This document shows, one piece after another, positions 42,540 to 47,012 of a DNA stretch of 58,200 nt. The notes under the pieces are model-generated. The model had not been told where the DNA came from and ran no database searches. It was given only the letters and a program-made list of their open reading frames with translations. Each line of letters opens with the position of its first letter. Within the stretch, counting starts at the first letter, position 1. Source of the stretch: Pseudomonadota bacterium (GTDB lineage: Bacteria > Pseudomonadota > Gammaproteobacteria > Steroidobacterales > Steroidobacteraceae); the NCBI GenBank assembly GCA_021792555.1, contig JAJYUL010000019.1, positions 1 to 58,200 on the forward strand. Direction: 5' to 3'. The position numbers were made by a program, and so were the translations under genes.

Positions 42540-45185
42540 TCAGCCGGCGGCGCGCGTCGGGACGATGCGTGGAATGACCAGCTGGGTTCCGGGGTGCAGA
42601 GTGAAGAAATCGGTGTTCGGGTTGTACTGGCGCAGCAGCCACGCCGGCAGCCCGTCGAAGCGCTGCGTCAGCGTCCACAGCGAATCGCCGCTGCGGGTCA
42701 CGTAGGTCCGCGTGCCGTCGATGCGGTGGCTGGCGAAGTAGCTCGCCTCCAGAGCACGATGATAGGCGATTCGCCGCTGCTCGAACTGCTGCGGGGTCAC
42801 ATGCCGGAAGTCGAGCCGGATCCGCTCGCCGATACGCACCGGCTGGCTGAAGGCGAGATGATTGATGCGGCGCAGGTCCATGGCGCTCACGTTCAGCCAC
42901 TCGGCGTAATAGCCGAGCGACTCGGCCGCTGCGACCCGGATCGTGCCATCGGGCGCCACCGTGTAATCCGTGGGGTCGACGCTGTCCGCCGGGACGCCCT
43001 CGGGGCCGAGCATCGGGCCGAGCGCCTCGGCCTGGTTGGCCGAGACGGGCTGCGGATCGCTGGCGGAATCCGCGCGCGCGCCGGGAGTGCCGAGCCGTGC
43101 ATCCGCCAGCGCCTGATTCGGGCCCGACGCCAGACGGGATGCCGCGGGCGGCAGCGCCAGGCGGTCAGCCGCGGTATTGGCGGCGAGAACAGTACCGGCC
43201 GGCGGCCGCAGTGCGTGAGTGGCCGCCGGAATATCATCAGCCGTGAGCGTCGCGGCACTGCCCGGCAGATGCAGCGGCTCGCCAATGCGCAGCACGCTGT
43301 TGAGTGCGATGTCATTGAGCCGGGCAAGCACCCAGGGGCTCACGCCGAAGCGCACTGCGATGCCCGAGAGCGTGTCGCCCGGATGTACCCGATAGACCGC
43401 CGGCTGCACCGCCGGCGCCGCGCCTGCGGCCGCCAGCTGCGCCCCGGGGGCGCCGCTGCCCGGCAGATGCAGCGGCTCGCCAATGCGCAGCACGCCGTTG
43501 AGCGGCAGGTCATTGAGCCGGGCAAGCACCCAGGGGCTCACGCCGAAGCGCACTGCGATGCCCGAGAGCGTGTCGCCCGGATGTACCCGATAGACCGCCG
43601 GGCGCACCGCCGGCGCCGCGCCTGCGGCCGCCAGCAGCGCCCCAGGGGCGCCGCTACCCGGCAGATGCAGCGGCTCGCCAATGCGCAGCACGCCGTTGAG
43701 CGGCAGGTCATTGAGCCGGGCGAGCATCCCGGGATTCACGCCAAAGTGCGCCGCGATTCCCGAGAGCGTGTCGCCCGGCTGAACCCGATAGACCGCCGGC
43801 CGCGCCACGGGCGGGCCTGCCGCAGCCGCCAGCTGCAGCGGGGGCCGGCTCACGCCCGGCAGCCGCAGGCGCTCCCCGGCGCGAAGCACCCCGTTGACGG
43901 GCATGCCGTTGAAGCGGGCCAGGGCCCAGATGTCGAGGTGGTAACGGGCGGCGATGCCCGAGAGGGTGTCACCCCAGCGCACGCGGTACACGGGAGGCCG
44001 CAACTGTGCTGCGAGCAGCGCCTGCGGCCCGAGGCGCGCGGTCAGCTGCGCCACGCTCCAATCCGGCCCGCTCTCCGGTAGGCGCAGTCGATAGCCTTTC
44101 GGCACATCGAGCTCGCCATCCCAGACCGGCGGCAGCAGCGCCGGGTTGAGCTCACGCAGTTTCGCGGGGGTGACCCCGAGCGCCCCCTCGATCGAGGCCA
44201 CCGAGACGTAGCCCGGCAGCGTCACCTCGTGGAAGTGCTCCTCCGGCAGTCTGTGCAGGTGGCCGAAGTAGCGCTGGGCATGCTGCTCGACGTACAGCGC
44301 AGCGAGAAACGACACGTAGAAATTACGCGAGGCAAACCCGAATGTCGGGGCGTGGTAGCGCGCGACGATGGTGGCGATATTCCGGGTACCGAGAGTGTGA
44401 ACCGCGCGCAGCATGCCGGCCACACCCTGGTTGTAGGCCGTGATGGCCAGCGGCCACGTGCCGAGGACCCGATAGTTGTAGGCAAGCAGCTGCGCAGCCG
44501 CCACGGTGGCGCTGAAGGGGTCGAACCGCTGATCGATCGCCGCGCCGATGCGCAGGAAAGGCCGCGCCGTGCCCGGCATGAACTGCCACAGGCCCGCCGC
44601 GCCGTCCTTGGAGTACGCTCGCGGGTTGTAGGAGGACTCCACCAGAGGCAGCGCGGCCAGCTGCGCCGGCAAGCCTTGCTCGGCAAGAGCGCGCGCGATG
44701 GCATGATGCCAGGCGCCGGAGCGGATCAGCCCAGCCCGGAAGCGGTTGGACTGGCCGAGTTGGAAACGGATGTCGTCCGCCGCCTCGCGCAGCCTCGCCG
44801 CACTGACATGCGGCCCCCACAAGGCCAGAATGTGCCGCTCCTGTGGCGTCAGCGGCCGCACTCCCGCCGCGATGCTGCGCAGTTCCGCGGCCAGCCGATC
44901 ACGCTCGGCATTGACGATGCGCTGACGCTCCCACGGCGAGCTGCCGGGAGCGAAATGCACCGTCTCGTAGACGACGCTGAGGTTGTTCGGGTCGTGCAGA
45001 AAGCCTGCGTTGGTATCGATCTGCGTGTAGACGCGAATCCAGAAATTCACCGCGGGGCGCAGCTGCGGCGGACAGGGTAGTGCCGCATCGGCCGCAAGCG
45101 CCTGAGCCGCGAATGCCACCAAGAAACCCACCCAGAACAGGCGCAACACGCCGGGCACCGTCCTGGAACCGCCCGTCGATTTCAT
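42540..45185 (-). CDS. mltD: Lytic transglycosylase with multiple LysM domains (MltD-like)
   Basis: Cleaves peptidoglycan glycan strands in the periplasm. The 881 residues contain a signal peptide (to about AQALA-AD, residue 31), a family-1 SLT domain with catalytic E183 (LPLVESSYNPRAYSKDGAAG, LWQFMPGTA, AYNQG), and about six LysM modules: four in tandem (VYRVxPGDTLSGIAxxFGV), one degenerate (YYAEWLNVSAMDLRRINHLA) and one at the C-terminus (TRSGDSLWTLTQRFD). E. coli MltD has two LysM, so this is an expanded form. No lipobox cysteine is evident. ATG 45185 is preceded by GAGG. Confidence 0.92.
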   Translation of the reverse strand: MKSTGGSRTVPGVLRLFWVGFLVAFAAQALAADAALPCPPQLRPAVNFWIRVYTQIDTNAGFLHDPNNLSVVYETVHFAPGSSPWERQRIVNAERDRLAAELRSIAAGVRPLTPQERHILALWGPHVSAARLREAADDIRFQLGQSNRFRAGLIRSGAWHHAIARALAEQGLPAQLAALPLVESSYNPRAYSKDGAAGLWQFMPGTARPFLRIGAAIDQRFDPFSATVAAAQLLAYNYRVLGTWPLAITAYNQGVAGMLRAVHTLGTRNIATIVARYHAPTFGFASRNFYVSFLAALYVEQHAQRYFGHLHRLPEEHFHEVTLPGYVSVASIEGALGVTPAKLRELNPALLPPVWDGELDVPKGYRLRLPESGPDWSVAQLTARLGPQALLAAQLRPPVYRVRWGDTLSGIAARYHLDIWALARFNGMPVNGVLRAGERLRLPGVSRPPLQLAAAAGPPVARPAVYRVQPGDTLSGIAAHFGVNPGMLARLNDLPLNGVLRIGEPLHLPGSGAPGALLAAAGAAPAVRPAVYRVHPGDTLSGIAVRFGVSPWVLARLNDLPLNGVLRIGEPLHLPGSGAPGAQLAAAGAAPAVQPAVYRVHPGDTLSGIAVRFGVSPWVLARLNDIALNSVLRIGEPLHLPGSAATLTADDIPAATHALRPPAGTVLAANTAADRLALPPAASRLASGPNQALADARLGTPGARADSASDPQPVSANQAEALGPMLGPEGVPADSVDPTDYTVAPDGTIRVAAAESLGYYAEWLNVSAMDLRRINHLAFSQPVRIGERIRLDFRHVTPQQFEQRRIAYHRALEASYFASHRIDGTRTYVTRSGDSLWTLTQRFDGLPAWLLRQYNPNTDFFTLHPGTQLVIPRIVPTRAAG
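43261..44052 (-). repeat. Four 198-bp tandem repeats encoding LysM modules
   Basis: Unit boundaries fall at 43261, 43459, 43657 and 43855, a constant 198 bp (66 codons). The first three units are nearly identical over long stretches (the CCCGGCAGATGCAGCGGCTC block recurs at each), while the fourth, nearest the catalytic domain, is diverged. High identity at DNA level implies recent duplication or gene conversion. Confidence 0.9.
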
Positions 45186-45365
45186 TTACACCTCGAGCTA
45201 CCTAAAATTTACGAGTTCACTCAATGTGTTAAGACCGCTTCAGCCCTATCTGCACAGATTAAGACAGCGGAATCGCGTCGAATTTTCTTACATTCGTAGG
45301 CATCTGAGCCGTCTCGCAACTCGCCTGCCACATCATCGCGCAAAGAATATGGGAAATCAGTTCGT

Positions 45366-45380
45366 GTAAGTGCACATTAC
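45366..45380 (+). promoter_or_regulatory. Dyad upstream of the sigma-54 promoter (possible activator site)
   Basis: GTAA-GTGCACA-TTAC is an inverted repeat centred at 45373, about 95 bp before the predicted transcription start, where an enhancer-binding protein would be expected. The match to a specific activator is not clear. Confidence 0.35.
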
Positions 45381-45441
45381 GTCACATTCGTGCCGGGATA
45401 CAGTGCCGATATGCCATGAGAGCGAGCTGGGACGATGGCCT

Positions 45442-45458
45442 GGCACAGGTATTGCTGG
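45442..45458 (+). promoter_or_regulatory. Sigma-54 promoter
   Basis: CTGGCACAGGTATTGCT matches the -24/-12 consensus YTGGCACGrNNNTTGCW at all fixed positions except the G after TGGCAC, with GG (45444-45445) and GC (45456-45457) ten bases apart. It points to the right and is followed ~160 bp later by an intrinsic terminator with no coding frame in between. Confidence 0.7.
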
Positions 45459-45468
45459 TAGTTCCTTA

Positions 45469-45645
45469 CTTCGGGCCGCTCGCCCGTCCAAGGGGGAAGA
45501 ACAAGCGATAGCAAGGAAATTCCGAGAAAGCACGGGCTTGCTGCGCACACAGACGCATGCTGTACCGTGCCGACCGATAAAAATAAGAAGCACGACTCGA
45601 TGCAAGCAAGCGACCGACCCCGCGCAAGCGGGGTCTTCTTTTTTC
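45469..45645 (+). ncRNA. Candidate sigma-54-dependent small RNA
   Basis: A ~177-nt transcript is predicted from the sigma-54 promoter to the terminator. It contains AAGAACAA (45497-45504), AAAAATAA (45579-45586) and AATAAGAA (45582-45589), all fitting AANAANAA, the CA motif through which CrcZ/CrcY RNAs sequester Hfq-Crc in Pseudomonas. A frame crossing it (45370-45669) runs through promoter and terminator and is not credible; a 7-codon frame at 45557 lacks a ribosome site. By architecture it resembles CrcZ-type or NrsZ-type RNAs, though it is shorter than CrcZ and homology is not established. Confidence 0.5.
45616..45645 (+). terminator. Rho-independent terminator of the candidate sRNA
   Basis: GACCCCGC (45616-45623), GCAA loop, GCGGGGTC (45628-45635), then TTCTTTTTT. 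A classic GNRA-type tetraloop terminator. Confidence 0.92.
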
Positions 45646-45665
45646 CGCAGGCCGCTGCACTGCAC

Positions 45666-46850
45666 CTAGGAGGCGGGTCGCCGGCGCGCCACGAGCTCCA
45701 CCGTGCCGAACAGCAGCGCAGCGAGCAGGGCAGAGGCAAACGCATAGAAGTACGGCACCGCCTGGCCGAACAGGAACAGCGCCCCCATGATCAGGTTTGA
45801 GAGGAACTGACCGATCGCGCGCGAGACCGACAGGAACCCCATGCCCCGGCTCAGGCGCGTGTGGCTGACCAGCGAGGACACCAGGGTCGGCTCGAAGGTC
45901 TCGACCGCCCCCATCCCGAAGCCCAGGACTGCGACGGCCGCGTAAGTCGCCAATGCCTGCATGTGCAGTGCGACGCTGAGACCGATCAGACCCGAGCCGA
46001 GCGCCGAGGGCGCATAGCCGAGCAGCCACAGCGCGCGCGCAGAGGATCCGCGGCGTGCGCCGAGCACGTAACCGCTGAGCGCCGAAACGCCAAGGTAGAC
46101 CACGTAGGCGAGCACGCCCCACTCGTAGCCCGCCGCGGCATGCGCCTCGGTGGCCGTCACGATCGGGAAGCCGAGGTTGTAGAAGCTGAACCCATAGAGC
46201 GTGGCGGAAATCAGCAGCGCCCCGAGCACTAGGCGCGGCGGAGCGCGCGTGCCGACAGCAGAGGTGTCGGGTGTCGGCTGTGCATAGACCTCGCGGCGGC
46301 GCACGAGCAGCAGCAGCAGCGTCGAGACCAGCAGCGGCACGACCGCCCACAGCATCACCGTGGTGATCCGCACCTTCAGCCACAGCGCGCCAAGTGCAAT
46401 CAGCGCCGAAAGCATGCCGCCGCCGATATCGAGCGCGTGCAGCGTGCCGAATGCGCGCCTGCGCTCGTGCGGCGGCGTTGCGCTCACCAGCAACGCCCGC
46501 CGGGACGGGCTGCGGAAATAGCGCGCCCACCAGCCGAGGACGTACAGCAGCGCCGAGAACCCGAGGGAATGCGCCAGACCCGCGAGCGCCATCAGCGGGA
46601 TCAGCGCATTGCCGGTGACCGCCACGCGCTTGCGGTCGAAGCGGTCGCCGGCCAGGCCGCCGAAATACGACACGAACGCGCCCCCGCCGAACGCGATGGC
46701 CGTGACCAGTCCGTACGCATAGAGCGAGGCGTGCAGCTGAAAGACCAGATAGAGCGGGAACAGGGCGGTGATGCCCTGGTATCCGAGGTCGGCGCTGAAG
46801 GCCGAGAAGCACAGCAGCCAGGCATCACGGGGTAAGGTTTGTCTGCTCAC
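45666..46850 (-). CDS. MFS transporter
   Basis: A ~394-residue major facilitator protein with about 12 membrane helices. The loop 2-3 motif is GGLAGDRFDRKRV, and the second half has DIGGGMLSALIALG and ALLFGTVELVARRR. The start is taken as GTG 46850 since GGAGG lies 9 nt before it; the ATG at 46859 touches the GGAGG and is badly spaced. Substrate unknown. Its stop is 20 bp from the sRNA terminator on the opposite strand. Confidence 0.83.
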   Translation of the reverse strand: MSRQTLPRDAWLLCFSAFSADLGYQGITALFPLYLVFQLHASLYAYGLVTAIAFGGGAFVSYFGGLAGDRFDRKRVAVTGNALIPLMALAGLAHSLGFSALLYVLGWWARYFRSPSRRALLVSATPPHERRRAFGTLHALDIGGGMLSALIALGALWLKVRITTVMLWAVVPLLVSTLLLLLVRRREVYAQPTPDTSAVGTRAPPRLVLGALLISATLYGFSFYNLGFPIVTATEAHAAAGYEWGVLAYVVYLGVSALSGYVLGARRGSSARALWLLGYAPSALGSGLIGLSVALHMQALATYAAVAVLGFGMGAVETFEPTLVSSLVSHTRLSRGMGFLSVSRAIGQFLSNLIMGALFLFGQAVPYFYAFASALLAALLFGTVELVARRRPAS

Positions 46851-47012
46851 CAGGACCATCCTCCTGCCGGCGCGCTATCGTTTCTCGCTGCACATTGCGG
46901 CGGCGAGCGGCCGCTCGGCATGAGGCTCACCCGGGCCGTCGGCCAATTCGCGGCACATCGTACCTGCGCAGCTTCCGGCATGCGACCCTGACTCGCCAAA
47001 GATGGCGCCCGC

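Follow-up and report, generated by a model that had tools for sequence, protein, structure and literature searches.

The window, that is, the entire 58,200-nt stretch of DNA analysed here, contains a single unit that consists of a -24/-12 element (45441-45456), an RNA of about 177 nt with no conserved open reading frame (ORF), and a terminator (45616-45645). We favor, with a probability of roughly 0.6, the reading that this unit is the gene of a sigma-54-dependent, Hfq-type regulatory RNA that would belong to the PEP-CTERM/exopolysaccharide regulon of its lineage and would be expressed via PrsR-type activation. The gene unit, the promoter, the boxes upstream of it and the hairpin, together with their conservation and synteny, are seen directly in the genomes compared, and from these we infer that the RNA is transcribed. 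Specifically, an NtrC-type activator (by precedent PrsR, phosphorylated by PrsK) would bind the two upstream boxes and fire the -24/-12 promoter; the RNA, with its stable hairpin and intrinsic terminator, would accumulate and load Hfq through its AAN tract and U-tail; and the element AAGCAAGCGACC, joined by an anti-Shine-Dalgarno CUCCUC(C) in most relatives outside the window's sub-lineage, would pair with target mRNAs and change their translation. PrsR as the activator, Hfq binding, base pairing and the targets are all predictions made from sequence.

Where individual items have to be told apart, genomes are labelled G, loci L, genera g and families f, with G000 denoting the window's own assembly. 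The features of the locus are as follows.

42540..45185, minus strand: mltD-like gene (SLT transglycosylase plus LysM; Pfam SLT and LysM), the divergent, near-constant neighbor
45175..45190, plus strand: distal motif-1-like box, GTCGATTTCATTTACA; exact, together with the proximal box, in 28 of 33 loci
45277..45292, plus strand: proximal motif-1-like box, GTCGAATTTTCTTACA, 17 nt when position 45276 is included; exact in 46 of 50 same-genus loci
45366..45380, no strand assigned: dyad GTAA-N7-TTAC, GTAAGTGCACATTAC, from the original prediction; palindrome kept only in close relatives
45381..45386, plus strand: conserved GTCACA element; [GA]TCAC[AG] in 47 of 49 same-genus loci
45441..45456, plus strand: sigma-54 -24/-12 promoter element, TGGCACAGGTATTGCT; exact consensus match, conserved
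45468..45645, plus strand: predicted noncoding RNA; start placed from the promoter, end from the terminator
45472..45486, plus strand: 5' hairpin in the MFE fold of the window RNA; 5'-end hairpins in several relatives
45530..45570, plus strand: central hairpin GCACGG...CCGTGC with a bulged A; covariation
45576..45590, plus strand: AAN-rich tract, a possible Hfq-binding site; positionally conserved A-rich stretch
45603..45618, plus strand: 3' element, CAAGCAAGCGACCGAC, a possible seed; invariant in 20 sequences up to ...GACCG
45616..45645, plus strand: intrinsic terminator; stem 45616-45635 of 8 pairs, then a T-run; pairs included in the covariation count
45666..46859, minus strand: MFS transporter gene (Pfam MFS_1), the converging neighbor in the window's sub-lineage only

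Promoter, noncoding unit and synteny

The promoter element is the only match in the window with at most one mismatch, and it is exact. Because 1.42 matches at this stringency are expected by chance per shuffled window, the element taken alone is weak evidence, and the promoter call is decided by conservation: TGGCA[CT]-N5-TTGCT is present in the window and 19 relatives (L002-L021), that is, in 20 of 20 loci after L022 is dropped. The element that the original prediction described as near-perfect is perfect and widely kept. One mismatch is found in the promoter that precedes the 3' module in G016. A check for loss of the element among relatives with conserved flanking genes did not refute the claim; the sole exception named is L052 in G076, a degenerate copy in which the promoter is not matched and the 3' element is mutated. 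A chance combination of promoter and terminator, or the terminator of a neighboring gene and nothing else, agrees with the expectation of about one sigma-54 near-match per window but is at odds with the fact that every one of the elements is conserved in different species and genera, and is very unlikely, indeed next to negligible.

The ORF list includes a GTG frame of 99 codons (45370-45669), but the corresponding stretch carries in-frame stops in five of the six relatives inspected, and in the sixth (L009), it is open and has no start codon. The longest ATG frame among the 49 same-genus loci is 58 codons long and no frame is kept throughout, so that a coding gene at this locus was rejected and the initial assessment that there is no credible ORF stands. 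The stretch 45366-45645 is also, as noticed at the outset, less GC-rich than its flanks (0.56 vs 0.70 for mltD and 0.68 for the MFS gene; 0.69 for the window).

The RNA is represented in 50 of the 58 genomes of the same genus, and in every one of the 28 good genomes among them, when blastn, covariance models and a scan of the locus are combined. Blastn with the region matches 21 of 60 genomes, the window's own included, and every match lies within the same genus; the match in G036 (L022) is, by eye, a groEL-like terminator and was dropped from the counts, the true copy in this genome being located elsewhere. The covariance model R1, which extends from the hairpin to the terminator, has matches in 47 of the 58 same-genus genomes and 26 of the 28 good ones. 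G001 and G016, the two good genomes that R1 does not match, contain the 3' module (79 and 72 bits, respectively, with the model R2 described below), and the G009 copy was added by blastn and the locus scan. R1 matches in g19 (L134, L135) are, by eye, lysine-rich coding ends and were dropped as well. G005 has two copies of the RNA (L115, L116), with mltD seen beside only one of them. A DNA pattern scan of named genomes returns 46 stretches, mostly from MAGs of Proteobacteria or Gammaproteobacteria and four from Steroidobacteraceae, along with matches in Weissella, Halorubrum and others that are unrelated and look like chance; the scan points to a Steroidobacteraceae-like lineage as the carrier of the RNA.

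A homolog of mltD is located beside 62 of the 71 loci examined (some genomes being counted twice), in g1, g20, g21, g29, g34, g40 and g41, and the locus is divergent from mltD across these seven genera. The nine loci without mltD are L012, L020, L116, L120 and five g38 loci. In six of the genera (g1, g20, g29, g34, g40, g41), the loci beside mltD are RNA-only, and across the mltD-linked loci of the family, the RNA is between 82 nt (g40) and 190 nt long. The original prediction suggested a search for a promoter-terminator unit conserved between mltD and the MFS gene; the unit and mltD are kept in relatives, and the MFS gene was seen in the window's sub-lineage alone.

Structure of the RNA and comparison with CrcZ

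Compensatory changes preserve the central hairpin. In the R1-based alignment, which comprises 50 matches in 49 distinct rows, includes the false match L022 and leans to the model, 95.8% of the cells pair and 19 of 22 pairs (14 in the hairpin, 8 in the terminator) change on both sides, vs 9.2 in shuffles. A structure-blind MAFFT alignment of 13 relatives yields four covarying pairs vs 1.0. On the 3' side of the hairpin, the AAN tract is followed by AAGCAAGCGACC and then by the terminator, which was recognized as strong and intrinsic from the start and indeed combines an 8-pair stem with a T-run. Bidirectional use of this terminator by the MFS gene was rejected, no T-run being visible by eye on the other strand.

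The near-invariant AAGCAAGCGACC element is present also in g20, g21, g29, g40 and g41; the exceptions outside the 20-sequence alignment are L052, L053, L118 and L123, and the g34 RNA has no such element. In most relatives outside the window's sub-lineage, AAGCAAGCGACC is preceded by CUCCUCC (CUCCUC in g21), a complement of the Shine-Dalgarno sequence; the window's sub-lineage is devoid of CUCCUCC and carries ACGACUCGAUG in its place. When the 13-mer complementary to the 3' element was used as a target signature, 42 matches with at most one mismatch were obtained in 8 genomes, compared with 47 for the reversed control; 8 of the 42 are the RNA loci themselves, and no common target gene was seen among the 21 matches inspected.

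Both the terminator with its U-tail and the A-rich motif that characterize Hfq-dependent trans-acting sRNAs are present. The AANAANAA motifs reported in the original prediction are found at 45497, 45579 and 45582, three when overlaps are allowed and two without overlap; the A-rich tract near 45579 is conserved in position, and the match at 45497 is shared only with some close relatives. These motifs bring up the main mechanistic rival of the favored reading, under which the RNA would be a sponge that titrates Hfq (or Hfq-Crc) through AAN motifs in the manner of CrcZ, without base pairing and with PrsR in the place of CbrB. AAN-type motifs are present in most RNAs of the class, sigma-54 control is what is seen in CrcZ, and 18 relatives outside g1 contain on average 2.8 AANAANAA vs 0.5 in shuffled sequences, at loci that were picked by a model containing the A-rich part. 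The motifs are few, however: the non-overlapping count is one or two in the window's sub-lineage, 0.8 on average in the sister sub-lineage and zero in five g38 loci. Moreover, the strongest conservation is in the 3' element, and we consider a sponge to be on the unlikely side.

CrcZ and NrsZ are sigma-54-dependent RNAs of pseudomonads; GlmY/GlmZ and Qrr, like NrsZ, are sigma-54-dependent sRNAs, and Rfam holds families for all of these, CrcZ included. The window RNA resembles NrsZ, GlmY/GlmZ and Qrr in its sigma-54 promoter, short length and terminator, and differs in that it has no Rfam match at the gathering score, nor do sixteen relatives. The likeness to CrcZ/CrcY, seen here at the level of sequence, encompasses a sigma-54-dependent -24/-12 promoter, a noncoding RNA, activator sites upstream, AAN-type motifs and a terminator of its own. 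Unlike the window RNA, which is flanked by mltD and the MFS gene and preceded by PEP-CTERM-type boxes, CrcZ is activated by CbrB and encoded beside cbrAB; further differences are the conserved 3' element and the Rfam result, with no CrcZ among the matches up to an E-value of 5. In the sections of the literature that bear on this, CbrAB is described as unique to Pseudomonadaceae (PMC8871633), and the Azotobacter CrcZ and CrcY are credited with 6 and 5 AANAANAA, respectively (PMC8871633, PMC5429807), compared to two non-overlapping or three overlapping in the window RNA. Given the lack of an Rfam match and of a cbrAB context and the low number of motifs, homology to CrcZ was rejected: in the way it would work, the RNA is partly CrcZ-like, yet it does not belong to that family. 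Of the interpretation originally proposed, one part is supported, namely a putative small RNA driven by sigma-54, equipped with AAN-type motifs, located outside Pseudomonas and kept with its promoter and terminator in relatives. The carbon- or nitrogen-responsive role is not supported: what is conserved upstream agrees with the PEP-CTERM box, cbrAB is not adjacent, Rfam gives no match and CA motifs are too few.

Upstream boxes and the candidate activator

The two GTCG-N7-TKACA boxes are the only exact matches in the 58.2 kb on both strands; the original prediction missed them, as it did the covarying hairpin and the conserved 3' element. The proximal box mostly starts 163-168 nt before the -24 element, a near-fixed distance. 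Exact copies are present in 17 of 19 loci from the window's sub-lineage and in 29 of 31 loci from the other sub-lineage, where the two box-less loci have no sequence that far upstream. A second box is located about 102 nt further up in 28 of the 33 loci examined, from g1, g20, g29 and g41, and the paired boxes are 99-104 nt apart in 27 of these 28.

The text of Haft 2006, in the part that concerns these promoters, describes a 17-nt motif 1 ending in TTTACA, sometimes repeated, before proteobacterial PEP-CTERM genes; it places motif 1 32-92 nt (mean 62.8) before the sigma-54 site (motif 2) and names PrsR as its predicted binder (PMC1569441). The window boxes, which end in CTTACA and TTTACA, appear to fit this motif as it is described in the text. 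The locus thus combines a sigma-54 site with an upstream 17-nt box ending in TTTACA, and the -24/-12 type is the same as that of PEP-CTERM gene promoters. It differs from them in that a noncoding RNA would be driven, in the presence of two boxes about 102 nt apart, and in the 148-nt spacer between box and promoter in the window, outside the 32-92 nt range. The same kind of arrangement occurs elsewhere in the family: a box, 40-70 nt and a sigma-54 site are found at 10 places in 15 genomes, with none for the reversed control. Of these, seven are followed by an ORF whose end is PEP-CTERM-like (canonical in 5, variant in 2), two by another ORF and one by none; the spacer is 62-65 nt in six of the seven PEP-CTERM-type places, and two places share their contig with matches to PrsR and exosortase. 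In a study on Aquincola, a PEP-CTERM gene is reported to depend on RpoN, and such an enhancer is mentioned (PMC9850573).

The distal box spans the start codon of mltD (CAT, 45183-45185), and TCAT is kept in every distal box found although the neighboring bases vary; therefore, the activator bound there may also affect mltD.

Other elements lie between the boxes and the promoter. The dyad at 45366-45380 is present as originally described; its palindrome, however, is kept only in close relatives and, not being kept beyond these, was rejected as an activator site. The wider conserved core is [GA]TCAC[AG], directly 3' of the dyad. By eye, a CRP-like reading of the dyad region, TGNGA-N6-TCACA, fits some relatives. 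An ATGTC-like element (45409-45415 in the window), between GTCACA and the promoter, is seen in 35 of 49 loci and in some relatives sits inside a CGACA-N3-TGTCG dyad.

PrsR (TIGR02915) scores over the cut-off in 18 of 20 genomes tested, and an exosortase is found in 11 of 15. In G000, no PrsR scores over the cut-off (best, 350 vs 502.6 bits), which sets the window's own assembly apart from the PrsK/PrsR system, and an exosortase is not found there, nor in G030, G222 and G230. The 11.4-kb PrsR/exosortase contig of the sister genome has no counterpart in G000, where its matches are limited to prsR and correspond to other activators (69-79%, with shorter stretches reaching 97% over 32 nt). The boxes being intact although neither PrsR nor exosortase was found, the window's species may have lost the cluster recently and been left with an orphan box, its assembly may have a gap at the cluster, or its boxes may serve a different activator. 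In G222, the other tested genome in which PrsR was not found, the box is present only with a mismatch, which fits PrsR dependence, in one genome of 85% completeness.

A rival explanation is that another NtrC-type protein drives the RNA, the boxes being look-alikes or relics in the window's species: PrsR was not found in G000, PF00158 has 15 matches in this assembly, the spacer is long, and conserved elements (GTCACA, 47/49; ATGTC-like, 35/49) intervene between box and promoter. Nevertheless, we regard it as rather doubtful in view of the identity, pairing and near-fixed spacing of the boxes, of the sharing of the box with PEP-CTERM promoters of the family, and of the box state in the single, 85%-complete G222. 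Among the NCBIfam families listed for them, none of the eight activators tested passes a curated cut-off. One sigma-54 activator in G000 (L030 and L033 on C39) is split over two reading frames; its best NCBIfam score, below the cut-off, is for RtcR.

Against PrsR-type regulation of a base-pairing RNA, the favored reading, stand the lack of PrsR and exosortase in the window's assembly, the long 148-nt spacer, the lack of a shared target among the matches inspected, the degenerate G076 copy and the absence of CUCCUCC from the window's sub-lineage.

Coding counterparts, wider spread and biological meaning

In g21, a PEP-CTERM coding sequence (5 translated, 2 more by geometry), divergent from mltD, occupies the slot of the RNA between the same promoter and box set and the same 3' module, with a box-promoter spacer of 128 nt (6 loci) or 138 nt (1 locus). 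The g21 stop codon falls within GATAA(C), which many stand-alone RNAs keep. The RNA could, accordingly, be viewed as a relic of a lost PEP-CTERM gene, a left-over promoter and 3'UTR with no function of its own, as both the g21 arrangement and the shared GATAA(C) would have it. This explanation is hard to reconcile with a hairpin that shows compensatory changes, with the persistence of the RNA in 50 of 58 species, and with the RNA-only state in six genera vs one clade with a coding sequence, and we deem it highly improbable. On the MltD tree, g21 forms one clade beside g20 and g40, so gain of the coding part in g21 is the simpler reading, although with the midpoint root used, the direction is not proven. 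sRNAs derived from 3'UTRs are a known class, and the g21 module (AAN, CUCCUC, AAGCAAGCGACC, terminator) is, likewise, the 3'UTR of a protein-coding sigma-54 transcript; the window's genus differs in having no coding part.

R2, a covariance model of the 3' module, was run over 396 genomes of the order. It finds 53 places with at least 56 bits in 52 genomes, all within the family, and the rest score at most 34.4 bits; the tally of matches with E<=0.001 in 44 of 72 genera is misleading, given that only 53 places reach 56 bits. Of the weaker places, 70 from a longer list were fetched and read, under the rule that sigma-54 site and box each have at most one mismatch, with the box 50-200 nt upstream. 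Both elements are present in 28 of the 70 (20 with an exact box), compared with none when read backwards. This count is independent of the selection because box and promoter are not part of R2; AAN richness in the weak places is not, because R2 selects for it. Nineteen of the 28 belong to six other families (f4, f5, f7, f9, f15, f16), six to g38, two to g35 and one to g34; in L240, L257 and L272, which are among the 19, both elements are weak. No complete ORF within the 28 RNAs exceeds 63 codons with any start or 46 with ATG.

Several of the places read deserve separate mention. The g38 loci (L158-L160, L162, L163, L241) are diverged RNAs of about 235-260 nt with box and sigma-54 site, with no AANAANAA in the five counted and mltD not found beside the five tested. 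The f16 loci (L220, L242, L249, L255) form a set of related RNAs, apparently a family of their own, with the common stretch CACCACCGCCGGACC before the terminator. A further three of the 70, L165, L222 and L230, represent the 3'UTRs of PEP-CTERM genes, and L246 and L265 have a similar appearance; all five, from other families, have AAN-type repeats before the terminator in 3'UTRs of PEP-CTERM-like genes.

The PEP-CTERM/exosortase system is known for protein sorting and for floc and exopolysaccharide formation, with PrsK-PrsR and sigma-54 as predicted regulators (PMC1569441 for PrsR). Within the portion of the openly licensed literature that surfaced, we found no description of a regulatory RNA linked to this system, and none of such an RNA tied to RpoN and exopolysaccharide or to sigma-54 and Steroidobacter.

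Tentatively, and at somewhat less than even odds, we propose an order-wide noncoding arm of the PEP-CTERM/exosortase system: most lineages that have the system would have one or more box- and sigma-54-controlled RNAs of 80-260 nt with AAN-rich tracts, the same promoter and 3' module could carry either RNA or PEP-CTERM protein as an interchangeable payload, and sorting of surface proteins would be coupled to Hfq-level control. If real, the RNA would be a post-transcriptional arm of the system; a compact promoter-RNA reporter would allow the Prs signal to be read; the syntenic site, where promoter and 3' end are common to a noncoding RNA and a protein gene, would make a traceable case; and a CrcZ-like design would be seen to operate with another activator in bacteria other than Pseudomonadaceae. 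An RNA that is conserved in a family of soil bacteria, encoded beside a cell-wall enzyme gene and equipped with an on-switch common to PEP-CTERM genes suggests that the envelope programme also has an RNA arm.
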